This document shows positions 4,624-37,893 of a stretch of 64,000 nucleotides of DNA, one piece after another; position 1 is the stretch's first letter; every line of letters begins with the position of its first letter. The stretch is from Haloferax sp. Atlit-12N (GTDB lineage Archaea > Halobacteriota > Halobacteria > Halobacteriales > Haloferacaceae), in assembly GCF_003383095.1 (NCBI RefSeq), contig NZ_PSYW01000002.1, positions 868,001 to 932,000 of the forward strand, given 5' to 3'. Both the position numbers and the translations under genes were made by a program. Under the pieces are notes generated by a model. It was not told the DNA's origin, did not search any database, and was given only the letters and a program-made list of their open reading frames with translations.

Positions 4624-7600
4624 ATGTTTGATGAACAATCTCATACAAGCTCAGACGAGTCGGAGTTCAGTAGGAGACAGTTCCTCGGTGGCCTCACATC
4701 GTTGGCCGCGGCGACGTCGTACACGCTCGACGTTCCCGACGAAATCGCCGCGACCGTCTCGAACGACGACGACGGGGCCGTCCAGACGGTTTCGTCACCC
4801 GACGGGTCGCTCGTCGTCCGAGTCGATGTCTCCGACGGGACGCCGACCTACGCGGTCACGTACGAGGGCCGTCGGGTCGTCGAACCGTCGGGACTCGGTT
4901 TCGAGTTCGCGGAGCAACCGGCGTTCGGGACCGACCTCGCCGTCGCCGGCACCGAGCGGACGACGGTCGACGAGCGCTGGTCGCCCGTCTGGGGGCAGTA
5001 CGACGAGATTCGCGAGCACTACAACGAACTCCGCATCGGTCTCAGCGAGACGACCGCGCCGGAGCGAACCGTCACGCTCGCGATTCGCGTCTTCGACGAC
5101 GGCGTCGGCCTCCGCTACGTCTTCCCCGAGTCGTCCGGTTTCGGCGACTTCGTCGTCACGAGCGAGCAAACGGAGTTCGCGTTCGCCGACGACTTCACCG
5201 CCTGGTGGGTTGAAAACGACTTCAACAGCTACGAGTACGCCTACGAGCGGACCTCGCTGAGCGAAATCGGCGACGAGAGTTCGTTCGGCGGCGCGCACAC
5301 CCCGATGACGATGCGAGCCGACGACGACTGCTATCTGAGCGTCCACGAGGCGAGCCTCGTCGATTACGCGGCGATGGCAGTCGAACCCGTCTCGGCCGGG
5401 TCCACGACCTTCCGCTCGACGCTCGCACCGCTTCCCGACGGGACGAAAGTGACCGCGAGCGCGCCGCACGCGACGCCGTGGCGGACGATTCAGGTCGGGT
5501 CCAGCCCCGGCGACCTCGTCGGATCGACGCTCGTCGTGAATCTCAACGAGCCGCGCGACCCCGCGGACTTCCCGCAGGGGACCGACTGGATAGAACCGCA
5601 GAAGTTCCTCGGCGTCTGGTGGCTGATGATAACCGGCCGCGCCAACTGGCAGTATCAGGGCCCACAGACCGGAAACCACGGGGCGCAGACGAAGCGCATG
5701 AAGCGGTACATGGACTTCGCCAGCGAACACGGCGTTCCAAGCGTCCTCGTAGAGGGGTGGAACGAGGGCTGGCGAACCTACCCCGGAGACGGCAGCGCGA
5801 TGGACTTCGACGAGTCCTACCCCGATTTCGACATCGAGGCGGTGACCGCGTACGGCCGCAGTCTCGACCCGCCGGTCGCGATGACCGCCCACAACGAGAC
5901 CGCCGGTAACGTCTCGAACTACGAGTCGCAACTCACGAGCGAGTCGAGTCCGTTCGCCTTCTACGACGACCTCGGCATCAACTCGATAAAGACGGGGTAC
6001 GTCGCGGACAGCGGCGTCACCATCGACGGGGAGACGTACAACCACCACTGCCAGCCGCTCGTGAATCACCACCGGTTAGTCTACCGCGAGGCGGCCAGAC
6101 ACCGGCAGATGCTCGAAGTTCACGAGCCGCTCAAACCGACCGGCGAGCGGCGGACCTTCCCCAACGTCATGACCCGCGAGGGCGTCCTCGGACAGGAGTA
6201 CGATTCCTTCGGCTACATCGACCCAGAACACCACGTAACGTTCCCCTTCACCCGGATGCTCGGCGGCCCCGTCGAGTACACGCCCGGAATTTTCGACACC
6301 GACTCCGGGTCCGGCGGCATCGAGACGACGCGAGCCAAACAACTGGCGATGTATCCGACCTACTTCAGCGGCCTCCAGATGGTCGCCGACCTCCCGAGTT
6401 CGTACCTCGCCGACCGGGATGCCACGGTCGGCGTCGGCGACGTGGCACAGGCCGAGAACGCGGACCTGGACGGCGTTTCGACTGCCGCGCGGTGGGCGGG
6501 CGCACAGGGCGGCCAGTACGTCCCAATCGACCCCAACACCGTCGACGCCGGCGCAGGGCTCTCGTGGACCGTCGAGGGCGTCGCCGAGGACGCCACGTAC
6601 GACCTGCATCTCCGGTACGCCAGCGACGGGGAGAACAACGCCGTCCCCGAGGACACGTCGCGGACGGCCACGGTGCTGGTCGACGGGGCCGAACAGGGGC
6701 AGGTGACGCTCCCGCCGACCGACTACTGGGACGACTGGAACGCCGTTTCGACGCCGGTGTCGCTGTCGGCGGGCGACAACGTGCTGGCGGTGCGACTCGA
6801 CGATGGCGACACGGGCGGGTTCAACCTCGACGCCGTCGCCGTCACGCAGACCGGCGCGTCGATGCCTGAACCGGCGACGGACCCGACGCTCGGGCCGACC
6901 GTCGACGCCTTCGACTTCATCGAGTCGGTCCCTGCCGGGCCGTGGAGCGACACCCGCGTCGTCGACGCCGAAATCGGCTCCTACTCGGTGGTCGCGCGAC
7001 AGCACGACGACGAGTGGTTCGTCGGCGCGATGACCGACGGGAACGGCCGCGCCCTCGACGTGCCGTTGGACTTCCTCGACGACGCGCCGGGCGAGCGTAA
7101 GGGACACACCGAGAACCGAACCGGCGCGGGCCACGGCGGGTCGAACGGTCGCGGTCACACCAAGGGGACGTACGTCCTCGAACTCTACTCCGATGGTACC
7201 GACGCGGCGTACGACTCGAACCTCGACGCCGTCCGCGTCGACGAGGCGGTCGTCACCGCGGACACGACCGTCCTCGCGTCGATGGTCGAGACCGGCGGCA
7301 CCGCGATGCGACTCAGACCGGCCACGAACGACGACCTCGCGCGACTGCCGCGATACCGGCGGCCCGACCAGGAGGTCGCGGTCGAGGTGCGCGACGAGCC
7401 GTTCGTCGGCGAGTCGTTCGTGACCGCGACGGGGTCGAACGACGGCGACTACATCGGCGGGACGACCCTCCGTCTCGTCGTCGACGGCGACCTCGCCGCG
7501 ACAACGAACGTGCGGTTCGAGCCGGGGGCGACCGATGCGCGGGACGAACTCTCGTACGCCATCGAGACGCCCGGCGAGTACGAGGTCGCCGTCGAGACGG

Positions 7601-8340
7601 TAGACGGCGAGACGCTGGCCGACGAGACGGTGACGGTACGGCCGCCCGAGACGGTCGCCGACCTCGGCGACCCGTCTGGAGACGACCACGGCCCCGGTGG
7701 GTACGTCTATCCGACCAACGGGGCCTTCGAGGACGGCGCGTTCGACCTCCGGTCGGTCACGGTCGAACAGACGCCGAGTCGGTACCAGTTCAGTTTCGAG
7801 GTCGAAAGCCTCTACAACGCCTTCGGGAGCAGTCGCGGCTTCTCGCCGCAGTTGTTCCTCCTGTGGGTGCGCGACCCCGAGAAACAGGGCGGGGCTGACG
7901 AGAGTCTCGACGACCTCGGGGCGAACGTGACGTTCGACGCGCCGTGGCACTACCGCCTCGAACTCAGCGGCTTCACCAAGAGCGCCGTCGACGCCACCGG
8001 CGCGGCCCTCACCGACGACGAGGGGAGCACAGTCACGCTCGGCGAGGCGGTCGATACCGACGCGAACACCGTCACGCTGACGCTCGACCGGGCCGCCTTC
8101 GACGGCGTCGATGCCGCCGACCTCGAAGTCGTCGCCGCGGTCCAGTCCGAAGACCGGGGGTCGCTCCGCCCCGTCGCGGAGACGGCCGGCGAGTACGTTT
8201 TCGGCGGCGCGAAGGCGGGCGCGGTCGACGCCGCGCCGCTCCTCGCCGACCTCGTCGCGCCCGACGGGCGGACCCAGTCGTCGGTCCTCGACTACGCCGC
8301 CGGTCAGCGCGCGACGATTCCGTTCGTCTCGCTGGGATAG
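4624..8340 (+). CDS. GH97 family glycoside hydrolase with C-terminal DOMON-like module, Tat-exported
   Basis: 1,238 residues, about twice a usual GH97 enzyme. The order is: Tat signal (SRRQFLGG, 16-23); GH97 N-terminal beta-sandwich (about 50-300); catalytic barrel with the hallmark V-E-G-W-N-E-G-W (near 380) and S-Y-P-D-F-D-I, then I-K-T-G-Y-V-A-D (near 453) and H-E-P-L-K-P-T-G-E-R-R-T (near 500). A carbohydrate-binding-like beta-sandwich (about 640-750) interrupts the C-terminal GH97 domain. A glucodextranase C-type DOMON-like module (about 1010-1235) ends the protein. GH97 enzymes are alpha-glucosidases or alpha-galactosidases; the Gly in I-K-T-G-Y may fit the inverting alpha-glucosidase branch. 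It acts extracellularly on polysaccharide, and no transporter genes are adjacent. Confidence 0.9.
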   Translation: MFDEQSHTSSDESEFSRRQFLGGLTSLAAATSYTLDVPDEIAATVSNDDDGAVQTVSSPDGSLVVRVDVSDGTPTYAVTYEGRRVVEPSGLGFEFAEQPAFGTDLAVAGTERTTVDERWSPVWGQYDEIREHYNELRIGLSETTAPERTVTLAIRVFDDGVGLRYVFPESSGFGDFVVTSEQTEFAFADDFTAWWVENDFNSYEYAYERTSLSEIGDESSFGGAHTPMTMRADDDCYLSVHEASLVDYAAMAVEPVSAGSTTFRSTLAPLPDGTKVTASAPHATPWRTIQVGSSPGDLVGSTLVVNLNEPRDPADFPQGTDWIEPQKFLGVWWLMITGRANWQYQGPQTGNHGAQTKRMKRYMDFASEHGVPSVLVEGWNEGWRTYPGDGSAMDFDESYPDFDIEAVTAYGRSLDPPVAMTAHNETAGNVSNYESQLTSESSPFAFYDDLGINSIKTGYVADSGVTIDGETYNHHCQPLVNHHRLVYREAARHRQMLEVHEPLKPTGERRTFPNVMTREGVLGQEYDSFGYIDPEHHVTFPFTRMLGGPVEYTPGIFDTDSGSGGIETTRAKQLAMYPTYFSGLQMVADLPSSYLADRDATVGVGDVAQAENADLDGVSTAARWAGAQGGQYVPIDPNTVDAGAGLSWTVEGVAEDATYDLHLRYASDGENNAVPEDTSRTATVLVDGAEQGQVTLPPTDYWDDWNAVSTPVSLSAGDNVLAVRLDDGDTGGFNLDAVAVTQTGASMPEPATDPTLGPTVDAFDFIESVPAGPWSDTRVVDAEIGSYSVVARQHDDEWFVGAMTDGNGRALDVPLDFLDDAPGERKGHTENRTGAGHGGSNGRGHTKGTYVLELYSDGTDAAYDSNLDAVRVDEAVVTADTTVLASMVETGGTAMRLRPATNDDLARLPRYRRPDQEVAVEVRDEPFVGESFVTATGSNDGDYIGGTTLRLVVDGDLAATTNVRFEPGATDARDELSYAIETPGEYEVAVETVDGETLADETVTVRPPETVADLGDPSGDDHGPGGYVYPTNGAFEDGAFDLRSVTVEQTPSRYQFSFEVESLYNAFGSSRGFSPQLFLLWVRDPEKQGGADESLDDLGANVTFDAPWHYRLELSGFTKSAVDATGAALTDDEGSTVTLGEAVDTDANTVTLTLDRAAFDGVDAADLEVVAAVQSEDRGSLRPVAETAGEYVFGGAKAGAVDAAPLLADLVAPDGRTQSSVLDYAAGQRATIPFVSLG

Positions 8341-8515
8341 AGTCCGCCGACGCGACGGCCCGACGTGCGTTCCCCTCGGCCCGTCGAGTTTGCCCGAGGC
8401 GTCCCTGAACGATACGTCTCAACATCAAATCCTCCGAACACGTCTTTCCACCCCATATATACACCGACGATAATGGCGGTTCGATTTCTTTTGACTCGCG
8501 GGGGAAGCGCCGGTG

Positions 8516-8941
8516 ATGGGACTTCCGGAGATGGACTCGGCTGTGTTGTTCGGCCTGATTACGATGGTGACGTGGGGGATTTGGATCATCTTAGGCAACG
8601 CCGCGTCGGAGTCCATCGACCCGAGAACCGCTGCCGCCATCTCGTATCTCGTGGCGGCGCTTCTCGCATTCGGCTTCATCATCGTCTCAGACGCATCGCT
8701 TGCAGTGACCCCGAGAGGCGGACTCCTTGCCGGCGTGGCCGGGTTGTTCACCGGAATTGGCCTCATCTCGATGTACATCGGGTTCACTCACGGGTCGACG
8801 ACGGTGGTCTCGACTCTCGGTGCGATGTACTTCGTCGTCGCGGCCATCATCGGGATGATAATTCTCGGAGACGAACTGACCGTCACGAAACTCACGGGAA
8901 TCGCGTTCGCGGTCGTCGGAATCGTCTTGGTCACCCAGTGA
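8516..8941 (+). CDS. EamA-type (DMT) transporter, half-length
   Basis: 141 residues and about five membrane helices, matching one EamA repeat: an N-terminal T-M-V-T-W-G-I-W-I-I-L-G-N segment and a C-terminal G-D-E-L-T-V-T-K-L-T-G-I-A-F-A-V-V-G-I motif. Full-length drug/metabolite transporters have two such repeats, so this probably works as a dimer, like half-size DMT proteins. An upstream GTG at 8513 is also in frame, and an internal ATG at 8531 is possible. Substrate unknown. It lies alone, downstream of the glycosidase with a gap of about 175 bp. Confidence 0.85.
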   Translation: MGLPEMDSAVLFGLITMVTWGIWIILGNAASESIDPRTAAAISYLVAALLAFGFIIVSDASLAVTPRGGLLAGVAGLFTGIGLISMYIGFTHGSTTVVSTLGAMYFVVAAIIGMIILGDELTVTKLTGIAFAVVGIVLVTQ

Positions 8942-26668: not shown

Positions 26669-27712
26669 ATGGCGAAAGGCCTTGACGTAGGTACCATGAA
26701 CATCCTGTCCGCGAGCCAGGATGGAAGTGAGACCGTATTTGTCCAGCAGCGAAACTCGTTCGTCGAAATCGACTACAGCGACATGGCGGAGCAGATGCTC
26801 TCGCGAAGCGACGTGCTCCACATCCGCAAGGACGACAAAGTGTACGTCGTCGGCGACGACGCGCTCAACTTCGCGAACATCTTCGGCAAGGAGACGCGCC
26901 GGCCGATGCAACACGGCATCCTCTCCAGCGAGGAGTCCTCCGCGATTCCGATGATCAAGCTCATCATCGAGCAGGTCGTCGGCTCGCCCTCCCGGCCGAA
27001 CGAGCGCCTCTTCTATTCGAGTCCGGCGGACCCCATCGACTCGGACCTCTCGACGCTGTATCACGACAAGACGCTCGAATCGATGCTCGGCGACATGGGC
27101 TACGACCCCGAACCCATCAACGAGGGGATGGCGGTCATCTACAGCGAACTCGCCGACAACAACTTCACCGGCCTCGGCGTCTCGTTCGGCGCGGGCATGA
27201 CGAACATCTGTCTGGCGTACTACGCGGTGCCAGTCATGCAGTTCTCCATCGCCCGCGGCGGCGACTGGATCGACCAGCAGACCGCACAGGCCACCGGGAC
27301 GGCCGTCGACAAGGTCACGTCCATCAAGGAAGACGACTTCCAGCTCGACTTCCGCACGGACGTCGGCGGCGTCGAGGGCGCGCTCTCGATTTACTACGAG
27401 AACCTCCTCGACTACGTTATCGAGAACATCGAGCGCGAGGTCGACGAGGAAGACATCGAAGAGGGCCTCGACGTGCCCGTCGTCGTCACCGGCGGCACCT
27501 CCAGCCCCGACGGCTTCGAGGAGCTGTTCGAACACCACCTCGAAGACTCGACGATTCCGTTCTCCGTCAACGAGGTCCGGAGCATCGACCGCCCGCTGTA
27601 CAGCGTCGCCCGCGGGTCGCTCGTCGCCGCCCGCTCCGAAGAGGAGTCCGACGGGAGCGCCTCCGAACCCGAACCGGAACCCGAAGCGGAAGCCGCGCCG
27701 GAATCGAACTGA
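26669..27712 (+). CDS. volA: Volactin/salactin-like actin-family protein
   Basis: 347 residues, an actin/Hsp70-fold ATPase: an N-terminal phosphate-1-like strand (G-L-D-V-G-T-M-N-I), the phosphate-2-like loop [13 protein letters not shown] (about 170-182) and the adenosine motif [13 protein letters not shown] (about 271-283). The C-terminal tail is a Glu/Pro-rich acidic stretch. It matches the haloarchaeal actin homologues named salactin and volactin, which form dynamic filaments linked to cell shape or partitioning; the name is from memory of those papers. TATA-like AGATTTATG (26637-26644) lies 27 bp upstream of the ATG. It sits beside a CetZ tubulin gene. Confidence 0.87.
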
Positions 27713-27796: not shown

Positions 27797-28300
27797 TTAC
27801 TCGTCTCCCGTGCGGTCCCCGCGGTCGCCGTCCTCCCCGTTTTTGCGCTGGTAGTCGCTTGACTCGCGGTCAGCGGCGTCGCTGTCACCCGTCTCGTCGG
27901 CCTCGACGGCCCCGGAGTCAGCGACGCCTTCAGTCGCGTCGCTCTCGTCGGTGACTGCGGCGGCTTCTCCGTTGGCGGCGTCAGCCTCGTTGCCCTCGGG
28001 TTCGGACTCGTTATCGTCGTCAGCGGGCTCGTTGTCGTCGTCAGCAGACTCGTTGTCGCCGTCAGCAGACACGTCGTTACCGCCTTCGTCTCCAGCCGCC
28101 ACGACCTCCTCCCGCTCGCGCGCCTCGCGGACCGCCCGCGCGTGAAAGCGGGCTATCGCGTCGTCCCACGACTCTCGGTTCGGCGCGTCGCGCTCGTGGA
28201 CCGTCTCGACGCCGACGAAGCCGCACCGCTCGCAGTAGCGCGCTGCGCGGCCGTCGAACGAGAGCGTCGAGAGTGGCTGTGAACACCGCGGACAGGTCAT
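27797..28300 (-). CDS. Zinc-ribbon protein with long acidic tail
   Basis: 167 residues. Residues 1-30 form a zinc ribbon with two Cys pairs (C-P-R-C at 3-6 and C-E-R-C at 23-26). A helix follows (W-D-D-A-I-A-R-F-H-A-R-A-V-R-E-A-R-E), then about 95 residues of Asp/Glu/Asn/Ser-rich low-complexity sequence with repeats such as A-D-D-D-N-E. It resembles small haloarchaeal zinc fingers often placed near transcription or cytoskeletal genes. Encoded on the opposite strand between the actin-like and CetZ genes, and divergent from CetZ. The acidic repeats probably vary in length between strains. Confidence 0.82.
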   Translation of the reverse strand: MTCPRCSQPLSTLSFDGRAARYCERCGFVGVETVHERDAPNRESWDDAIARFHARAVREAREREEVVAAGDEGGNDVSADGDNESADDDNEPADDDNESEPEGNEADAANGEAAAVTDESDATEGVADSGAVEADETGDSDAADRESSDYQRKNGEDGDRGDRTGDE

Positions 28301-28424
28301 GCAGTTTGCCGATAATTCTCACCCGGGTCGTATAGAACTACCCCGTCGGCGGCGGGGCCGAAGAACTACGGGTGACAGTCCGCTAACAGAAGATTCACCA
28401 TCGATGGCGTGCCACAGAGAGACG

Positions 28425-29612
28425 ATGAAGGTCCTTTGCTTCGGAGTGGGACAAGCGGGTGGGAACGTCCTCGACGCCCTCCTTCGGTACGAACAGCGCA
28501 CGAACGCCGACTACGTCGTCGACGCGGTGGCGTACAACACCGCGTCGGCGGACCTCCGCGGCCTCGATAATGTCCCCGAGGAGAATCGCATCCTCTTCGG
28601 CGCGGACGAGGTGAGCGGTCACGGCGTCGGCGCGGACAACGAACTCGCCGCGGAACTCGCCGAGCGCGACAGCCGACAGCTCCTTCGCGGCACCGACGGG
28701 TCGCCGACCTCCACGGCCGACGCGTTTCTCATCTTCGCCGGACTCGGCGGCGGCACGGGAAGCGGTGCGGCTCCCGTGCTCGCGAAGCACCTCCAGCGCA
28801 TCTACGAACAGCCCATCTACGGCGTCGGCATCCTCCCCGCCGCAGACGAGGGCGCACTCTACTCGCGCAACGCCGCGCGGTCGCTCAAGACGTTCGTCGA
28901 CGTGACCGACCACGTGTTCGCGTTCGACAACGGGGCGTGGGCGCACGCCGGCGAGGACGTCGCGGCGGCCCACGACTCGATGAACGAAGAGTTGGTGCGA
29001 CGCCTCGGCATCCTCTTCGCCTCGGGCGAGGTAAGCGAGTCGGGAACGGTCGGCGAGAGCGTCGTCGACTCCTCGGAGGTCATCAACACCCTCCGCGGCG
29101 GCGGCATCTCGACTATCGGCTACGCGGCGAGCGAACTCCCCGAGAGCGACGACGGCGGCGGGTTCAGCATCAAGGGGCTGTTGGGCGGCGGGTCGTCGTC
29201 GGTGGACGAACTCGACTCTATCAACCGCATCACGACCCAGACGCGGAAGGCGGTGCTCGGTCGGCTCACCCTCCCGTGTGACGTGGATTCCGCGTCCCGG
29301 GGATTGGTCGTCGTCAGCGGCCCGCCCGAGTGGCTCAACCGGAAGGCCATCGAGCGGAGTCGGACGTGGGTCGAAGAGCAGACCGGGAGCATGGAGGTCC
29401 GCGGCGGCGACTACCCGCTCCCCGAGTCGAACCACGTCGGCGTGCTCGTCCTCCTCGGCGACGTGTCGCGGAGCGACCGCGTGTCCGAAATCCAGTCGAC
29501 CGCCGTCGAGGCCGAGCGCGACCGCCGCGACCGCGAGACCGGCGGTGACGGCGGTGACGGCGGGGACGACGCGGAGGCAGTCGTCGACGAGCGCCTCGAT
29601 ACGTTGTTTTAA
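28425..29612 (+). CDS. cetZ: CetZ-family tubulin-like GTPase
   Basis: 395 residues from the ATG at 28425 (M-K-V-L-C-F-G-V-G-Q-A-G-G-N). Tubulin/FtsZ features: the N-terminal nucleotide strand, A-Y-N-T-A-S-A-D-L, the GTP-binding G-L-G-G-G-T-G-S-G-A-A-P (about 109-120), and a G-I-L-P strand. CetZ proteins lack the FtsZ C-terminal tail and control cell shape and motility in haloarchaea. The insert D-D-G-G-G-F-S-I-K-G-L-L-G-G-G and the acidic Gly/Asp C-terminus are peculiar to this paralogue. An in-frame ATG at 28404 is possible. The pairing with an actin homologue 0.7 kb away suggests coordinated work (inference). Confidence 0.93.
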   Translation: MKVLCFGVGQAGGNVLDALLRYEQRTNADYVVDAVAYNTASADLRGLDNVPEENRILFGADEVSGHGVGADNELAAELAERDSRQLLRGTDGSPTSTADAFLIFAGLGGGTGSGAAPVLAKHLQRIYEQPIYGVGILPAADEGALYSRNAARSLKTFVDVTDHVFAFDNGAWAHAGEDVAAAHDSMNEELVRRLGILFASGEVSESGTVGESVVDSSEVINTLRGGGISTIGYAASELPESDDGGGFSIKGLLGGGSSSVDELDSINRITTQTRKAVLGRLTLPCDVDSASRGLVVVSGPPEWLNRKAIERSRTWVEEQTGSMEVRGGDYPLPESNHVGVLVLLGDVSRSDRVSEIQSTAVEAERDRRDRETGGDGGDGGDDAEAVVDERLDTLF

Positions 29613-30434: not shown

Positions 30435-30458
30435 TGTAACAAAGATAACTTCGTTACA
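30435..30458. promoter_or_regulatory. 24-bp near-perfect palindrome, candidate operator
   Basis: TGTAACAAAG-ATAA-CTTCGTTACA has 10-bp arms with a single mismatch. It lies 43 bp before the 85-residue gene (minus strand) and about 40 bp upstream of the TATA box at 30500-30507 (plus strand), so it could control both. A related 24-mer with the same flank CCTTTC is at 17608-17631. Confidence 0.6.
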
Positions 30459-30527
30459 CCTTTCCGAGAGATTGTTCTCCAAGCTGACAATCAGAATGAT
30501 TTATATATTCGAAGTGGCTGTGTTCAG

Positions 30528-30630
30528 TTGGATGCAGCACCGTACAGAGTAACCCCTCGGACGCATCCAATTGACCGAACTCATCCCCCCTTCCCCCCTT
30601 CCCCTTAGGTTCGGTCACCCCTTTACGGGG
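30528..30630 (+). ncRNA. Candidate structured RNA / 5' leader with three hairpins
   Basis: A strong TATA box (TTTATATA, 30500-30507) predicts transcription starting at about 30527-30530. The transcript would begin with stem 1, TTGGATGC/GCATCCAA (30528-30535 with 30563-30570). Stem 2, TGACCGAAC/GTTCGGTCA (30572-30580 with 30609-30617), has a pyrimidine-only C/T-rich segment in its loop. The adjoining stem 3 is CCCC-TTTAC-GGGG (30618-30630). All stems are perfect, and stems 2 and 3 abut. It may be a leader of the beta-helical surface protein gene (start 30768) or a separate small RNA. No known RNA family recognised. Confidence 0.5.
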
Positions 30631-30767
30631 CGAAACTAACGCTCCCCAGTCGAGACTGTCCTCACGCGCCGAGCGACAGGAGAACGGCTACACAGCCGAC
30701 CCCCGGCAGTCCGGTGTGTACAAGACGCTCCGCGCCCAAGGAGCAGGTAGTCTCTGGAGACCGTCAC

Positions 30768-32552
30768 ATGAATCAGAACCTGTGGTACGCCGGGATACTC
30801 ATCGCGGTGCTCGGCGTCACGCTCGCCGCGGTTCCGACGGGCAGTTTTAGCTCGGTCTCCGGACAGCGGCCGGTCGACGTCTCGGTCGTCGGCGACGACC
30901 GGGCCCTCGTCGCGCTCGAACCGACCGGCGAGGTCGTGACGCGCCCCGGCCGCGGCAACGCCGTGACGGTCGGGTCAATCGTGAACAACCTCGGCACCGA
31001 CGTGACGGTCGAGTACAGCGCCCGCTTGGACACGAACGCCCTCTCGCTCGCACAGTCCGACGGGTCGCCGACGCTCGGACGAGGCGGCGAACACCAGGTG
31101 ACGGCCTACTGCCGGCGACCGAACACGGGCAGCGGCGTGGCGACACTCATCGTCGAAGTCGACTCGGCGCAGGCGGACGGCGTCTCCATCTCCGGGGCGA
31201 CGCTCGAAGCGCGAGTCGAGTACGATTGCACGAGCGGGAACGGCGGTGGCAATCCCGGCAACGGCGGTGGCAACGATGGTGGTGATGGCGGCGACGGCGG
31301 CGATGGCGGCGATGGCGGCGACGGCAACCCCTCGGGGCCGTCGAACGGCGTCGCGTACGTCGACACCGACGAGGACATCGCCTACGACGATGGCGAGCGC
31401 GTCCTGACCGAACAGGAAGTCGCGACGTTCGACGACGACGATGCGGTGCTCGTCGTCGGGACCGACAACGGAACTATCGACAACAGTTGGCGCGCTATCG
31501 ACATCTCGGCCAAACGCGTCGTCGTCAGGCACACGACGTTCACGAGCGGTGACTCGGTCGATATCGAGGCTGAGACGAGCATCGAGTTCACCGACGTCAC
31601 CGTCGTCTCCGACTGGGGCGAGGTCACCGTCTCGGGCGAGTCGATAACGCTCCGTCGGTCGACCATAGACGCGAAGAACGGGAAGATAGAACTCGCGGCC
31701 GACGACGGGACGCTCGACGTGCGCGAGAGCACGGTTCGCGGGAAAAACGACAAGGTCGAACTGACCGGAGAGACGATTCAGGCCGGGAGCGCGACCATCC
31801 GGAACACGAATGACGAAATCGACCTCGCGGCCGACGACGGCCCCGTGAACGTCACGGGAGCGACGCTCGACAACCAGAACGGCAAGGTCACCGTCTCGGG
31901 CGAGTCGGTTCAGGCCCGCGGCGCGGCCATCAGCACGCGAAACGGAAAAATCGAACTCGCGGCCGACGACGGTTCGGTGGACATCCGCGACGCGAGCCTC
32001 CAGAACCGGAACCGAGACATCGAGGTGAGCGGGGAGACGGTGTCGGCGCGGAACGCCTCGATTACGGTCGTCAACGGACGGATTTCGCTCGACGCCGACG
32101 ACGGCCTCCTCGACATCGAGGACGCGACGGTCCACGGGGAGAAACAGATTGACCTCACTGGCGAGCGCGTCGGTGCCGCGGGCGCGTCCATCGAGACGAA
32201 GAACGCTCAGATAGACCTTCAGTCAGGGGCCGGCGACATGACGCTCGACGGCGCGACGGTCGAGACGAAGAACGCGCAGATTACCGTCGAATCCGCGGGC
32301 GAACTCCGCGCGAACGACAGCGTCTTCGAGACGACGAACGCGGACGTGTCGCTTTCGGCCGCCGGCGACGTGTTCCTTCGCGACGCGAGCCTGCGAACCA
32401 CGAACGCCGAACTCACCGTCGAACTCGGCGACGCCTCGGCGACGCTCTCGGTCGATGGCCTCGAAGTCCGGGACCGGGACGACACCCTCGACTACGACCC
32501 CGGCGACGCGGGAGTGACCGGAACGCCGAGCGCCGGACAGGTTCGCGGGTAG
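30768..32552 (+). CDS. Secreted beta-helical repeat protein with Gly/Asp linker
   Basis: 594 residues from the ATG at 30768, preceded by GGAG as a possible ribosome site. A signal peptide or anchor is followed by a beta domain (about 25-150, with V-E-Y-S-A-R-L-D-T and a two-Cys pair C-R-R/Y-D-C). Next come a Gly/Asn/Asp linker (about 155-187) and a C-terminal array of about 350 residues made of ~23-residue coils such as K-I-E-L-A-A-D-D-G, V-T-V-S-G-E-S and A-T-I-x-x-x-N-G. This is a beta-helix or adhesin-like stack. No anchor at the C-terminus. It probably lies on the cell surface and may join the neighbouring DUF1102/SipW module (inference). Confidence 0.82.
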   Translation: MNQNLWYAGILIAVLGVTLAAVPTGSFSSVSGQRPVDVSVVGDDRALVALEPTGEVVTRPGRGNAVTVGSIVNNLGTDVTVEYSARLDTNALSLAQSDGSPTLGRGGEHQVTAYCRRPNTGSGVATLIVEVDSAQADGVSISGATLEARVEYDCTSGNGGGNPGNGGGNDGGDGGDGGDGGDGGDGNPSGPSNGVAYVDTDEDIAYDDGERVLTEQEVATFDDDDAVLVVGTDNGTIDNSWRAIDISAKRVVVRHTTFTSGDSVDIEAETSIEFTDVTVVSDWGEVTVSGESITLRRSTIDAKNGKIELAADDGTLDVRESTVRGKNDKVELTGETIQAGSATIRNTNDEIDLAADDGPVNVTGATLDNQNGKVTVSGESVQARGAAISTRNGKIELAADDGSVDIRDASLQNRNRDIEVSGETVSARNASITVVNGRISLDADDGLLDIEDATVHGEKQIDLTGERVGAAGASIETKNAQIDLQSGAGDMTLDGATVETKNAQITVESAGELRANDSVFETTNADVSLSAAGDVFLRDASLRTTNAELTVELGDASATLSVDGLEVRDRDDTLDYDPGDAGVTGTPSAGQVRG

Positions 32553-32601
32553 TCGTAGTCGGGAGCGCGCGGACGTTGCAGACTATCGGCGTCCAGCGCA
32601 C

Positions 32602-33762
32602 TCACAGATACTTGCGTCTGAACTGCTCGACGAGTGAGACGTTCCGGCCCGTCGAGCGCAGCCGAATCGGGCCGAGACCGAGCGCGAGGACGCTCACGAG
32701 GAGCGTCGCGAACGCCAACACGGCGTCGATAGCCGCGATTGCGAGGAACGGATGAACCTCGTGTAAGCCGAGGATGACTGTCTGCGGGAGCACGGGAACG
32801 TACAGCTGTTCGCGTATTTCGCGGTCGTACGCGCCGGTCTGGTCCGGCGCTTGGATGGTGAGCGACGTGTTTCGCGACCCCTTCCCCGGAACCGTGAGCA
32901 CGGACTGACCAAAGGAGACGCCCGGGTCACGGGATTCGAGGACAGTGATAATCGGGACGTAGCCGTTGTTCGTCAGCGTGTAGTCGATGACCGCCGTCTC
33001 GCCGACGCCGACGACGAGCGGGCTCTCGTTCGGCGACTCGGAACTCACGATGGTCAGTTCCGTCGGCCCCGACCCGAGAACCATACTCAGCGTCGCGGGC
33101 GTGACGACGATGACGACGAGCAGGAAGAGAACGACGCCGCTCGTGTAGTAGTCCGGGCGGCGACGGCTGTGCGAACTCTGTTTGCGCCCGCCACCGGAGC
33201 CGTCGAACACGAGACTCAGCGCGATGAGAATCCCACCGATGGCGACGAGGAACATGGGTGATGGCTCCCCGTCGGCGGCGCTCTCGAAGCCCGGGAGGCT
33301 CCCGAGGAGGTCGAACGCGCCGGTTGCGAGCCCGTTCACCGCCCCCACGACGGCACCGAGTTGCGGAATGACGACGACGTTTCCGTTCACCTGGAGCGCC
33401 TCGGCGACGATTTGGGACCGCTTGACCGGCGGCTCGACGCTCTCTTGGTCGGTGAAGGGGTTGGCGTCGCCGCGCGTGATGTACCCCTCTTCGGTCCACC
33501 TGACCACCCGGTGGGTCGTCAGCCCGCCGCCGTGGAGTTCACGCGCGTTGAACACGACCACGTCGCCGGATTCGGGGTCTTCGAGCAGGACCGAGGGGAC
33601 CGCGATGAAGCCGTCGCCGGGCTCCATCGTCGGTGCCATACTCCCCGTCTCGACGTAACCGAGGAGCACCGGCTGGCCGAGCGCCTGCCCGAACAGAAGC
33701 GCGACGACGGCGAGGACGAGGAGTCCGAGCACCGCGTATTCGAGGACGTCGCTGAGTTTCAC
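32602..33762 (-). CDS. ER-type signal peptidase I (SipW/Sec11-like) with C-terminal extension
   Basis: 386 residues, more than twice the typical archaeal signal peptidase. The catalytic part (about 1-170) has an N-terminal membrane helix, G-S41-M-A-P-T-M (nucleophile Ser), T-T-H84-R-V-V (His in place of bacterial Lys) and R-G-D99-A-N-x-x-x-D105. It is therefore the Ser-His-Asp ER type, like SipW. More membrane helices follow at about 174-190, 210-232 and 350-372, with an exported beta domain between the last two (about 235-345). It is divergent from three DUF1102 genes and so is probably dedicated to their processing, as SipW is to TasA (inference). Confidence 0.88.
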   Translation of the reverse strand: MKLSDVLEYAVLGLLVLAVVALLFGQALGQPVLLGYVETGSMAPTMEPGDGFIAVPSVLLEDPESGDVVVFNARELHGGGLTTHRVVRWTEEGYITRGDANPFTDQESVEPPVKRSQIVAEALQVNGNVVVIPQLGAVVGAVNGLATGAFDLLGSLPGFESAADGEPSPMFLVAIGGILIALSLVFDGSGGGRKQSSHSRRRPDYYTSGVVLFLLVVIVVTPATLSMVLGSGPTELTIVSSESPNESPLVVGVGETAVIDYTLTNNGYVPIITVLESRDPGVSFGQSVLTVPGKGSRNTSLTIQAPDQTGAYDREIREQLYVPVLPQTVILGLHEVHPFLAIAAIDAVLAFATLLVSVLALGLGPIRLRSTGRNVSLVEQFRRKYL

Positions 33763-34067
33763 GGCGTGTGTGAAACACTACGTGTGAACCCGTAATTACC
33801 TATCGCCGTTCCGTCCGTCTTTCGGGGCCCGGAGAACGGGCGCGCGGGAGTCGGCGGAGTCCGTCACGCGTCACGATGTGGGGGACCATCGCTTCCGATG
33901 TGCTAGTATGTCGTGTCCAATGATGTTACGGTTCGAGAACCGTGTCACCAAGAGCCGTGCAAAGAGGCATCACGAACGTCGAGTTCGAACGAAAATCGAC
34001 AGACTGCGAGCTGGTTTCTCGGTCTTAAATTCTCGCTTGAACGTCGAACATGCGCCCCGAAAGGTGG
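33763..34067. other. Divergent promoter region of the signal peptidase and DUF1102 genes
   Basis: No gene. A TATA-like GTAATTACC (33790-33798) suits the signal peptidase on the minus strand. TCTTAAATT (34023-34031) suits the DUF1102 operon on the plus strand, giving a leader of about 160 nt that contains the structure at 34068-34138. An extra copy of GCTTGAACG is at 34035-34043. Confidence 0.5.
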
Positions 34068-34138
34068 GCTTGAACGGGGGTCGCCGGGGAGAAAGCCGGG
34101 CTTGTCGAACGGAACGGCGACCGAGAACTCGTTCAAGC
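34068..34138 (+). ncRNA. Candidate structured 5' leader of the DUF1102 operon
   Basis: A nested hairpin. The outer stem is GCTTGAACG/CGTTCAAGC (34068-34076 with 34130-34138), the middle stem GGTCGCCG/CGGCGACC (34079-34086 with 34115-34122) and the tip AAGC-CGG-GCTT (34093-34103). All three are perfect, and they stack in the order expected of one folded RNA. It lies 75 bp before the start codon at 34213, downstream of the TATA-like element. The same 9-mer GCTTGAACG occurs at 34035-34043 and could compete for the 3' strand if transcribed. Confidence 0.55.
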
Positions 34139-34212
34139 ACCGGAATACAAAGTGGGTAGGACCTGATGGAAGAGATAACGACGCAGTCACCTGTGTCAGG
34201 GAGAATACAACC

Positions 34213-34827
34213 ATGGCAATCAACAGACGCAACATCTTGATCGGACTCGGAGCACTCGTCGGCGGCGGTGGCGCACTCGTCGGAACGGGAGCGTTTACGA
34301 CCGTGAGTGCGGCGCGTGAAGTGAGTGTGAGCACGGCCGGCGACGGGAGCGCGTTCCTGTCCATTACTGGCGATGGCGAATATGTGACCGATGACAGCAG
34401 CGATGGAACGCTGACGATCGATCTCGGTTCGGTTGGTACAGACGCCTCAAGTAACGCTGGTAGTGGCTTCAACCAAGAAGCGATCACGACGCTTAGTGAT
34501 GTACTTACTATCGGAAACAACTCTGCAGAAGACGAGACAATCACAGTTGGTGTCTCTACGGCAGCTCCCGGCTCGTCGCCGTCAGCGAACAAGAACACGA
34601 CGATGCTCATTCAAGATAGCAGCCAGGATAGTCAGAACGTCGCTCTCGTCACGTTCACCGTGGACAGTCAATCAGTCGGTTCTGGATCCACCACGGGAGT
34701 CGATGTGACTGTTAACACGATGTCGTCAGATATGGAGGGCTTCACTAACAGTAGCGCTACATTCGACACCAATAGCAGCGACAACACTCCGCGTCTGACC
34801 ATCGTCGCGACCGAGTCTAGCAGCTAA
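34213..34827 (+). CDS. DUF1102 family secreted protein (first of three)
   Basis: 204 residues. The N-terminus M-A-I-N-R-R-N-I-L-I-G-L-G-A-L-V-G-G-G-G plus A-L-V-G-T-G-A-F-T-T-V-S-A matches the SipW-dependent-like signal of haloarchaeal DUF1102 proteins, with the cleavage region near T-V-S-A-A. The mature part is Ser/Thr/Asn-rich and all-beta, with phrases such as L-T-I-D-L-G-S-V and V-T-F-T-V-D-S, consistent with a camelysin/TasA-like jelly-roll. Probably exported and processed by the adjacent signal peptidase, and possibly a fibre subunit (inference). It is followed after 3 bp by the second gene and so is co-transcribed. Upstream in-frame starts exist but fall in the leader. Confidence 0.85.
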   Translation: MAINRRNILIGLGALVGGGGALVGTGAFTTVSAAREVSVSTAGDGSAFLSITGDGEYVTDDSSDGTLTIDLGSVGTDASSNAGSGFNQEAITTLSDVLTIGNNSAEDETITVGVSTAAPGSSPSANKNTTMLIQDSSQDSQNVALVTFTVDSQSVGSGSTTGVDVTVNTMSSDMEGFTNSSATFDTNSSDNTPRLTIVATESSS

Positions 34828-34830
34828 TCT

Positions 34831-35514
34831 ATGAAACGACGAAACATCATCGCGGCAATCGGGACGCTCGCCATCGGCAGCGGCACGGCAATCGGAACAG
34901 GCGCGTTCGACGCGACGAGTACGAGCGCCGACTCGTCGATGAGTATCATCACCGAACGGTCCGACGTGAACGTCGACGTGAACCCCGGGAGCGGGGCCGG
35001 GAGCGGGAATATTCGAGGGAGCCTGTACAGCGACACCGAAATCGAGAACCTCGACGTCGACGACCTCCCGCTGGCGGCCGTCTCTGATAACGGCCAAGGG
35101 ATGGTTCACGTCCAGATTATCGGCGTCGTCGGCACCGACGAGACGTTCTCGAACATCGTGGAGTTGACGAACAACGACGTTGACCAGAGCTACGAGATGG
35201 GATTCTACTACGACGGCGGCTTCACCGAGGAGGTCACGTCGGGTGACAAGCTGACCAAATCCGAGGCAACTGACGTGTTCGAGTTCACGCACGACTCGAC
35301 GGTCATCTCCAGTCTCGACGGGACGACCGGAAGCACCGTAGCGCTCGACGCGTCCGGCGGTACCAACGACACCGTACAGGTCGATATCGAGTTCAACGGG
35401 ACCAACACGCGCCTGAACGAGGAGTACGGCCTGAGTGCGGGCGGGTTTGGGACCGGTACTGCGACCCAGATGGAACTCATCGACCAAGTTACCGTGTTTG
35501 CGGACGAAGTCTAA
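34831..35514 (+). CDS. DUF1102-like secreted protein (second of three)
   Basis: 227 residues, starting M-K-R-R-N-I-I-A-A-I-G-T-L-A-I-G-S-G-T plus A-I-G-T-G-A-F, the same signal type as the first gene, and beginning 3 bp after it. The mature domain is acidic and all-beta, with I-V-E-L-T-N-N-D-V-D-Q-S-Y-E-M-G-F-Y-Y-D near the middle. That L-T-N-N phrase is the conserved donor/edge-strand region of the family. No membrane anchor at the C-terminus. Probably a structural subunit or minor component of the same assembly as its neighbours (inference). Confidence 0.83.
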   Translation: MKRRNIIAAIGTLAIGSGTAIGTGAFDATSTSADSSMSIITERSDVNVDVNPGSGAGSGNIRGSLYSDTEIENLDVDDLPLAAVSDNGQGMVHVQIIGVVGTDETFSNIVELTNNDVDQSYEMGFYYDGGFTEEVTSGDKLTKSEATDVFEFTHDSTVISSLDGTTGSTVALDASGGTNDTVQVDIEFNGTNTRLNEEYGLSAGGFGTGTATQMELIDQVTVFADEV

Positions 35515-35532
35515 CGACCTACGGAGGTTTCC

Positions 35533-36153
35533 ATGCCCACACGCCGCCAGACTCTCTTCGTTCTCAGCAATTTCTTCATCGTCGGCGGCGTCCTCGGCGT
35601 GAGCGCCACGACGACGACCCAGTCCACGTCGGGGGCGAGTTTTCGCATCGTCGCACCCGACTACCTCTCTCTCACGGCGGCGAACGACCCGCCGATTCAC
35701 GTCGAGACGAACTCGTCCGGCTACGTGACACGACTCACCCCCGGCGGCGACAAGAACGGCGTCAACAAGCGCGCCATCACGCGTTTCGAGGATATCGTCC
35801 GCCTCACCAACGTCAGCGAGGTCGACATCGACGGCATCTACTTCGAGTTCGACGTGACGAGCGACTCGCTTTCGGACTCGACACTCGAAGACGTGGAGGC
35901 GGCGCTGCAGGTCACGGCGGGCGACGAGGCGCTCGCCCCGGGAACGGACGGAGACGACCTCCTCGACGTGAGCCCGGCGGTATCGGGATCAGAGGGAGTC
36001 CTCGGACCGGGCGAGTCGGTCCCGTTCGGTATCCAACTCAACCTCATCCCGTGGACTGGACCGAGCACGCTGGAGGACCTCCCGGACCCCGAGACGTACA
36101 GCGCCACGCTACGGATTCACGTCGAGCGGGAGTCGTCGGACTCCGGTGACTAA
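35533..36153 (+). CDS. DUF1102-like secreted protein (third of three)
   Basis: 206 residues. The signal (M-P-T-R-R-Q-T-L-F-V-L-S-N-F-F-I-V-G-G-V-L-G-V) lacks the G-T-G-A-F part but is otherwise alike. The mature part is all-beta and contains D-I-V-R-L-T-N-V-S-E-V-D-I-D-G-I-Y-F-E-F, matching the L-T-N element of the second gene, and an F-G-I-Q-L-N-L-I-P-W strand. No C-terminal anchor, no cysteines. It starts 18 bp after the second gene and completes a three-gene operon. It may be a capping or accessory subunit (inference). Confidence 0.8.
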   Translation: MPTRRQTLFVLSNFFIVGGVLGVSATTTTQSTSGASFRIVAPDYLSLTAANDPPIHVETNSSGYVTRLTPGGDKNGVNKRAITRFEDIVRLTNVSEVDIDGIYFEFDVTSDSLSDSTLEDVEAALQVTAGDEALAPGTDGDDLLDVSPAVSGSEGVLGPGESVPFGIQLNLIPWTGPSTLEDLPDPETYSATLRIHVERESSDSGD

Positions 36154-36250
36154 CCGGGGTGATGCCGTTGGGACGCCGGCGAGGCGGTATCTGTGCGGCC
36201 GCTGACAGCAGAGGAACTATGTGCGGCGGCGCAGTATCGACGGTCGATAG

Positions 36251-36844
36251 ATGAGTCCCAGCGGTGCCGGTGGGTTGCTCGGCCGCGCGTCGGCCTCAGA
36301 GGCCGACGACGGCAGCGAGGGCGACGACGCGTTGACGCGCGACGAGATTTTCGACCTGATGAGCAACCACCGCCGGCGATACACCCTCCACTACTGCAAG
36401 CGGGCCGACGGCACGGTCCAACTCTCCGACCTCGCAGAGCAGGTCGCGGCGTGGGAACAGGACAAGGAGATTCCGGACCTGACCTCCGCCGAGCGAAAGA
36501 CCGTCTACACGTCGCTCCAGCAGACGCACCTGCCGCGGCTCGAACAGGCCGGCGTCCTCCGATACGACCGGGGCGAAGTCGAACTCACGGAGCGCATGGA
36601 GCGCCTCGATATCTACATGGACATCGTCCCCGAGAACTCGGTTCCGTGGGGGGTGTACTACCTCGGCCTCTCGGCGCTGTCGGGCCTCGTCGTGGGGGCC
36701 CTGTGGGCCGGCGTACTCCCGACGGGGACGGTCCCGCTTCTCGCCTACCCGACCGCCATCGTCGCGGCGTTCGGTCTCTCGGCGGCGTACCACACCGTGA
36801 CGAACCGCCGCTACCAGTTCGAGAACCTCGAACGACCGCCGTAG
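36251..36844 (+). CDS. DUF7344 HTH protein with two membrane helices
   Basis: 197 residues. An acidic N-terminus is followed by a winged helix (about 28-115) with the DUF7344 phrase I-F-D-L-M-S-N-H-R-R-R-Y-T-L-H-Y, V-Q-L-S-D-L-A-E-Q-V, and Y-T-S-L-Q-Q-T-H-L-P-R-L. Two membrane helices follow (about 133-157 and 160-182). DUF7344 proteins are presumed transcription regulators; here the helices would tether the DNA-binding domain to the membrane. Next to the DUF1102 operon and convergent with the DUF5305 gene, it is the likely local regulator (inference). Confidence 0.85.
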   Translation: MSPSGAGGLLGRASASEADDGSEGDDALTRDEIFDLMSNHRRRYTLHYCKRADGTVQLSDLAEQVAAWEQDKEIPDLTSAERKTVYTSLQQTHLPRLEQAGVLRYDRGEVELTERMERLDIYMDIVPENSVPWGVYYLGLSALSGLVVGALWAGVLPTGTVPLLAYPTAIVAAFGLSAAYHTVTNRRYQFENLERPP

Positions 36845-36870
36845 GGTTCGCTGTTTTTGCCCGGTCCGAC

Positions 36871-37893
36871 TCAGAGATTGAGCCACGCGTGCGTGTTCGT
36901 CTCGTCGAGCGAGTAGTAGTATATCTCGCTGCTGTCGATGACGGCGTACGTCTCGATTTCGGGGTCGAAGATGACGCGACGGTTCGTGTCGATGGCCACG
37001 TCGACGAGGTCTTCGAGGGTGAGAATCGAGATGTACGGCTTGTTCGCGTCTGTCGGGAACTCACCGCGGGAAATCCACTCCTCGTGGCGACTGTGCGAGA
37101 TTTTCGTTCGGAGTTCCTCGGGGTCGCTCCGGTACTCGGTGCGGATGACGAGACCCGCGAGTCCGAACAGCACCAGCGCGGCCGCGACGAGGCTGCCGTA
37201 CTCGACGGGGGTCGACGGTTGCGTCACGCTCCGCGCGACGGTCGTCGAGTGCCGCCGGTCGTCCGCCAGCGACCGTTCGAGGTAGTAGGCCCGCCCGGAG
37301 AACACGAGCGGCGTGCTCGCTTCGAGCGTCCCGCTGTACGAGCCCGTCTGGTACGTCACCGTGAGGTTGACGCTCGTCCTGAACTGTCCGACGCCACCGG
37401 TCTCGGTCCGCTTTTGCTGGAGGTCGCGGTCGAGCGTGGAGACGTTGACTACGGGCGCGTTGACGGCGGTCCCGTTGGTGACTGTCGTCCGGTCGTCGAC
37501 GAGGACAGTCTCGTTCTCGTAGAACGGCGAGCCGTCTCGGACGCCGACGGTGCGAAGGACCAATCGCTGGGTGACGTTGACCGATTGATTCGCTGGAACG
37601 TCGGTGTGGACGCGGAACGACACGTCGGGCGAGATTGTCATGAAGTAGACAGAGCGGTTCTCCAGCGTCGACCCGCGCTCGTAGAGCGTCGTGTTCTGGG
37701 TGACGACCGCTCGCGTGTCGACGCCGGTCTCGACCGACTGCACGTTCGTCTCTTCGGTCACCGTCTGGGTCGTCGGCGTGAGAAAGACGTAGCCGGCGGC
37801 GACCAGACACGCGACGCCCGCGATAGCGAGCACGGCGACCAGCACCCGAGCCTGCTGCGTGACGAAGAGTTCGAGGCGGTCGTCAAATCCCAT
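36871..37893 (-). CDS. DUF5305 membrane protein
   Basis: 340 residues. An N-terminal membrane helix (about 17-40) and a second helix near 225-245 enclose a large extracellular beta domain (about 50-220) rich in N-x-S/T sequons (N-V-S, N-V-T, N-L-T). A cytoplasmic C-terminal part (about 250-340) contains I-L-T-L-E-D-L-V-D-V-A-I-D-T-N-R-R-V-I. This is the DUF5305 layout, a family often found beside signal peptidase and DUF1102 genes in haloarchaea. Possible role as an assembly platform or sensor for the exported proteins (inference). Confidence 0.86.
   Translation of the reverse strand: MGFDDRLELFVTQQARVLVAVLAIAGVACLVAAGYVFLTPTTQTVTEETNVQSVETGVDTRAVVTQNTTLYERGSTLENRSVYFMTISPDVSFRVHTDVPANQSVNVTQRLVLRTVGVRDGSPFYENETVLVDDRTTVTNGTAVNAPVVNVSTLDRDLQQKRTETGGVGQFRTSVNLTVTYQTGSYSGTLEASTPLVFSGRAYYLERSLADDRRHSTTVARSVTQPSTPVEYGSLVAAALVLFGLAGLVIRTEYRSDPEELRTKISHSRHEEWISRGEFPTDANKPYISILTLEDLVDVAIDTNRRVIFDPEIETYAVIDSSEIYYYSLDETNTHAWLNL

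Follow-up and report, generated by a model that had tools for sequence, protein, structure and literature searches.

Surface fibres of the Tafi type are represented among the Halobacteria by a solved structure (PDB 9p0a, 'Structure of Natrinema sp. J7-2 Tafi pilus', released 2025-07-23) and by the NCBIfam models TafA, TafC, TafE and TafF, whose loci in other Halobacteria share with the locus described here the pilins, an adapter, a peptidase, DUF5305 and DUF7344. Two other systems bear comparison, the archaeal bundling pili built of AbpA in Pyrobaculum calidifontis (PDB 7ueg), a member of another archaeal phylum, and the SipW-TasA-TapA system of Bacillus, in which a dedicated ER-type peptidase stands beside a beta-sandwich fibre subunit, that of the biofilm scaffold fibre to which the Tafi fibre is related. 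In the latter, TasA is assembled by donor-strand exchange starting from a self-complemented monomer (PMC9674648). The locus reported here is very probably a form that the archaeal Tafi pilus system takes in Haloferax. An earlier note on this DNA knew of no experimental description of the gene set; that the set is undescribed does not hold, as the 9p0a structure and the Taf models already exist. The kind of system is thus known; what may be new in it is that the adhesin is swapped, that the pilin bodies are exchangeable, that the signals are of the Tat type and that the peptidase bears a chaperone-like domain.

The window analysed is a stretch of 64,000 nucleotides from Haloferax sp. Atlit-12N (contig NZ_PSYW01000002.1, positions 868,001 to 932,000), with Haloferax sp. 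Q22, H. gibbonsii, H. prahovense and H. marisrubri as nearest named relatives (peptidases 95–96% identical). Every gene of the locus was found where the earlier note had placed it, with the peptidase divergent from three adjacent secreted genes on the plus strand and a repeat-rich secreted protein located beside them. The features were as follows.

30768..32552, plus strand: secreted two-domain beta-helix protein, likely a fimbrial adhesin (gene coordinates, TafE/TafA profiles, 44-residue repeat)
32602..33762, minus strand: signal peptidase of the SipW type (ER-type Ser/His/Asp), extended at its C-terminus (TIGR02228, 61 bits)
33763..34212, no strand: intergenic region between the divergent peptidase and pilin genes (gene coordinates)
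34213..34827, plus strand: pilin A, most likely the major Tafi pilin (TafE/TafA and 9p0a matches)
34348..35480, plus strand: hypervariable stretch comprising the pilin A body and almost the whole of pilin B (sliding identity, five Haloferax genomes)
34831..35514, plus strand: pilin B, second Tafi-type pilin (NCBIfam TafE, E 1.6e-9; PDB 9p0a, E 8.8e-5)
35533..36153, plus strand: pilin C, third pilin-like protein, a candidate minor pilin or cap (iterated profile)
36251..36844, plus strand: DUF7344 protein, candidate membrane-tethered regulator (PF24035)
36871..37893, minus strand: DUF5305 membrane protein, candidate assembly platform or anchor (PF17231)

A Volactin gene (actin-like, 450 bits; window 26669–27712) and a CetZ tubulin-like gene (242 bits; 28299–29612) were located near each other upstream of the pilus locus. 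Defence models gave zero matches.

Pilin A matched the NCBIfam models TafE (E 4.5e-15, 55.8 bits, cut-off 155) and TafA (E 1e-9, 38.8 bits, cut-off 190); because these scores are far under the curated cut-offs, it is regarded as a relative and not called a member. Pilin B matched the same two models, also under the cut-offs, and pilin C, to which no Pfam or NCBIfam family was assigned, was grouped with the other two solely through an iterated profile built from relatives. The window differs from the NCBIfam Taf loci in these low pilin scores, and also in that TafF gave no hit at E<=1 among the seven window proteins. The DUF1102 label previously given to the three genes had to be abandoned, as neither they nor any other protein of the window matched Pfam DUF1102 (PF06510) at E<=1; a Halobacterium relative reached only 20.8 bits with a cut-off of 22.2.

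Searching the PDB with pilin A returned one matching chain, 9p0a (E 5.7e-13). The 9p0a sequence was 100% identical over 215 residues to a pilin of Natrinema gari (our locus L125, 6890–7534), the gene of which is located 1.4 kb upstream of the equivalent long peptidase, followed by DUF5305. The Haloferax locus and the Tafi pilus of Natrinema have in common a homologous pilin with the same head motif, predicted cleavage site and fold class, as well as the position of the pilin gene beside a long SipW-type peptidase and DUF5305; they differ in that the mature bodies share just about a fifth of their residues and that the Haloferax locus has three genes for pilin-like proteins, with the peptidase gene divergent from them, and also encodes a beta-helix protein. 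Fold prediction, which had been proposed as a check, came out in favour of a pilin: AlphaFold2 modelled pilin A as an all-beta protein (pLDDT 75.9), for which the best structural matches were 9p0a (Z 7.6, 125 residues) and, next, 7ueg of the Pyrobaculum bundling pilus (Z 6.8, 111 residues), although values of Z < 8 are moderate and can reflect a mere common arrangement, so that the sequence match to 9p0a weighs more. Any likeness to AbpA would lie in the pilin fold, the Z being below the level that tells kinship from a common arrangement; no sequence-level match to it was found, and its gene neighbourhood is presumably a different one. TasA entries were absent from the list of structural matches, an absence that excludes nothing. 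Cleavage of pilin A was predicted after A27, within a conserved head (residues 1–45) followed by a hypervariable body. Since A27 is invariant and 9p0a contains 188 resolved residues ending at 215, the mature chain would start at F28.

Comparison of five Haloferax genomes, that of the window included, revealed that the peptidase, pilin C, DUF7344 and DUF5305 were 91–99% identical (pilin C, 91–97%) and that residues 1–45 of pilin A were 96–100% identical, whereas identity was 40–59% in the pilin A body (one pair, 88%) and 33–89% in pilin B, for which the window's allele was unlike those of the four nearest relatives (33–40%). At the DNA level, identity fell near 34.35 kb and recovered near 35.48 kb, sliding values being 43–65% within 34348–35480 (one pair 76–94% over pilin A) versus about 85–98% in most flanking windows. 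Estimates of dS for the pilin A body ranged from 1.3 to >4, with two pairs undefined and 0.40 in one similar pair, whereas those for the neighbours and the pilin A head were 0.07–0.40, with a sharp border near codon 45. In addition, which strains paired as similar depended on whether pilin A, pilin B or the flanks were compared. Saturated synonymous sites in the body together with changing strain pairs fit the acquisition of diverged alleles, the border lying within the conserved head, and since no spare (silent) pilin cassettes were found in the genome, just one orphan relative, the exchange would be between strains. The sequence pattern is thus one of outward-facing pilin bodies that appear to be exchanged among strains by recombination, while the head and the machinery stay constant.

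Surface proteins are frequently under diversifying selection, and the variability of pilins A and B might accordingly have arisen by fast point mutation under positive selection rather than by allele exchange. We consider this unlikely, as point mutation would account neither for saturation that stops at a sharp border, with low values in the head and the neighbours, nor for a strain resemblance that changes from pilin A to pilin B to the flanks. Regarding the extent of the pattern for which allele exchange is the preferred explanation, the same contrast between head and body was observed in several other close pairs (Natrinema limicola / N. hispanicum, and Natronococcus) and was absent in N. 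gari, N. pallidum and N. altunense. With pilins of constant head and swapped bodies, the surface fibre may serve in strain recognition or in escape from viruses; virus escape or partner recognition would be possible causes of the exchange. Pilin A had no match in the plasmid and phage collections. A further variable block, upstream of pilin A in the 5' part of the divergent intergenic region (33800–34000; 70–84% identity among relatives) and situated between two conserved stretches, is possibly regulatory. It was also noticed that the orphan relative (L153, G000:C2:721000–737000; 7571–8554) combines the head and body of a Tafi-type pilin with a fused tail that is weakly similar to bactofilin; a similar orphan was present in one other Haloferax genome.

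The assignment of the peptidase to the ER type was borne out by an alignment of 44 rows (the window and 43 relatives), in which Ser41, His84 and Asp99 were invariant, and the long extension noticed earlier was found to comprise about 250 residues. In the AlphaFold2 model, the extension (pLDDT mostly 81–90) is predicted to form an extracellular MSP/PapD-like Ig domain (residues about 228–342) with a further transmembrane helix on either side. The catalytic part matched SipA of Streptococcus pyogenes (Z 10.0), a signal-peptidase homologue required in pilus polymerisation, and LepB of Escherichia coli (Z 9.8). The extension domain most resembled MSP domains (VAP-A, Z 8.5), with further matches to the pilus chaperones CupB2, Caf1M, YadV and FimC (Z 6.3–6.8), which places it by prediction in the fold class of the PapD chaperones of chaperone-usher pili; in contrast to these systems, Haloferax has no outer membrane or usher, and the likeness is one of predicted fold. 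As the MSP/PapD-like fold is common, a chaperone role for the extension is hypothetical. Profile comparison of the extension, DUF5305 and the pilins gave no detectable relation. In four Halonotius loci (L088, L099, L123 and L138), the open frames of the long peptidase extended to about 685–766 codons, which may reflect a fusion, a late stop or an early start.

Conservation of the neighbourhood, which the earlier note had set beforehand as a check that could refute its reading, was evident among 116 genomes of the order. The long SipW-type peptidase was present in 76 of them, TafE-like proteins in 72 and DUF5305 in 74; DUF5305 was located within 6 kb of 89 of the 99 long SipW-type peptidase genes, and in 66 of these 89 loci it was directly downstream on the same strand. 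Within 80 named loci, some of them shortened by contig ends, DUF5305 was found in 75, pilin-like genes in 70 and DUF7344 in 67. A Tafi-type pilin was carried by 9 of 15 Haloferax genomes. The arrangement of peptidase and DUF5305 is far beyond chance and represents a real, conserved module. Since the solved pilus 9p0a is tied to a gene set occurring in about two-thirds of the 116 sampled genomes, the fused peptidase, DUF5305 and DUF7344 become clear targets.

The DUF5305 protein (PF17231, E 5.3e-43, 147.4 bits) has, by hydropathy, a transmembrane segment, an external beta domain, a second transmembrane segment and a conserved cytoplasmic domain, and in its tail W273, P280, V297, D298, A300, I301, D302 and V307 were invariant. 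Its earlier designation as a platform stands in so far as DUF5305 is the constant partner of the peptidase, which fits such a role, the role itself being that of a candidate. DUF5305 was also detected in other families of the phylum: in the three loci examined (L157, L158 and L160) it directly followed a SipW-type peptidase, the upstream genes carrying the SipW-dependent signal domain above the cut-off in L157 and looking TasA-like by eye in L158 and L160, and in a fourth locus a SipW-type peptidase was situated about 5 kb away. The association of DUF5305 with SipW-type peptidases, in this locus as well as next to TasA-type genes of other archaea, suggests one ancient export partner. The DUF7344 protein (PF24035, E 5.4e-29, 100.8 bits) has an N-terminal winged-helix-like domain and, by hydropathy, C-terminal transmembrane segments, from which it might tentatively be taken as a candidate regulator of the locus.

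The beta-helix protein consists of a pilin-like N-terminal domain (about residues 1–160), a Gly/Asp-rich linker and a beta-helix with a 44-residue repeat. In a whole-genome profile search its N-terminus was matched by TafE (2.0e-4) and TafA (2.2e-4), and its motif GSFSSVSGQRPVDVSVVGDD aligned with the pilin heads; no twin-arginine motif was found in it. The gene adjoins the locus in Haloferax and Halobellus. TafC follows the same plan, an N-terminal pilin-like segment joined to a LamG/concanavalin-like domain, with LamG in place of the helix; TafC had no match in the Haloferax genome, and the beta-helix protein occupies its place there, a further difference from the NCBIfam Taf loci. As it begins like a pilin, it is probably the fimbrial adhesin of the locus. 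Compared with the window's gene, the beta-helix gene of another locus (L071, 10211–12370) contained two extra stretches of about 90 bases, as if the number of helix turns varied among strains.

The motifs NRRNIL, KRRNII and TRRQTL are present near the start of pilins A, B and C, respectively. A TATFIND-style rule (a twin-arginine motif plus an uncharged stretch) was passed by all three and by 101 of the 108 short pilin-like proteins, whereas among all other reading frames the pass rate was about 2% (with the pilins counted in, 184 of 5101 frames passed). Because the twin-arginine motif is almost invariant, export of the pilins by the Tat pathway is likely. The following pathway can be proposed: 1) pilins A, B and C would be exported by the Tat pathway, probably folded, 2) the SipW-type peptidase would cut after the invariant A27, freeing an N-terminus that reads FTTVSAARE..., 3) this conserved N-terminal strand would insert, as donor, into the groove of the adjacent subunit, a step suggested by the conserved head and the fold match, and the pilus would polymerise by donor-strand complementation as in TasA and, as far as the fold goes, AbpA, 4) the MSP/PapD-like extension and DUF5305 may hold subunits at the membrane or pass them on, 5) the beta-helix protein, sharing the N-terminal domain of the pilins, may be incorporated as adhesin, and 6) DUF7344 might conceivably control expression.

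In this pathway the pilin-like proteins are fibre subunits. They could instead be independent proteins secreted to the cell surface, such as adhesins or enzymes, and matured by the same peptidase, given that the filament in Haloferax sp. Atlit-12N is a predicted one and that neither pilin C nor the beta-helix protein could be assigned to a family. However, a homologue from an equivalent locus is the subject of a solved filament entry (9p0a), and the head is preserved while the body changes, as expected if the head is needed in assembly, which together make separate surface proteins distinctly improbable. With regard to the pilus, the idea that pilins exported in the folded state by Tat are cleaved by a peptidase bearing its own PapD-like chaperone domain (cut and catch), with a constant head and strain-swapped bodies, is offered as a speculative one that we ourselves hold to be doubtful. 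If true, it would amount to a chaperone-assisted donor-strand pathway without an usher and to strain-specific fibre coats. The Tat-type signals pose a testable question, namely how subunits that are exported folded still exchange strands.

The proposal that the locus is dedicated to exporting and assembling a beta-sandwich fibre of the TasA/AbpA kind is upheld by the fold match, the conserved neighbourhood and the presence of a peptidase of its own in addition to the housekeeping peptidases of the genome, Sec11a (C2:301.5 kb) and Sec11b (C1:1469.5 kb), which were identified by their neighbouring genes and are tentatively named after the gene neighbourhoods of Haloferax volcanii. The proposal that this locus is the genome's counterpart of Bacillus SipW-TasA fared otherwise, as a separate operon (G000:C3:394.8–399.9 kb; L154, 6858–11866), encoding two camelysin-family proteins, a peptidase and a fourth secreted protein, came closer. 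With the SipW model (NF046067, cut-off 190), the peptidase of that operon scored 119 bits versus 27.8 for the window peptidase; the SipW-dependent signal domain (TIGR04088) was above cut-off in that operon and not found in the window; and the PF12389 (TasA/camelysin) hits of the genome were all on contig C3, none being in the window.

The window locus resembles SipW-TasA-TapA in having a dedicated ER-type peptidase beside the gene of a beta-sandwich fibre subunit and in probable strand donation, and differs from it in that its pilins match neither the TasA/camelysin nor the SipW-signal models and carry Tat-type instead of Sec-type signals, in the extra MSP/PapD-like domain of the peptidase and in the lack of TapA. 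That the locus represents a genuine SipW-TasA (camelysin) system as in Bacillus is scarcely tenable, its membership being already largely refuted, for the points on its side (ER-type catalytic residues, a weak SipW score, the sharing of DUF5305 with TasA-type loci of other archaea and a related fold through AbpA) are opposed by a score far under the cut-off, by the missing PF12389 and TIGR04088 matches and by the location elsewhere of the operon that has them. The peptidase at C3:397216 had also been considered as the housekeeping one and was rejected, as it belongs to the camelysin operon. Twin-arginine-like signals were also noticed in this operon.
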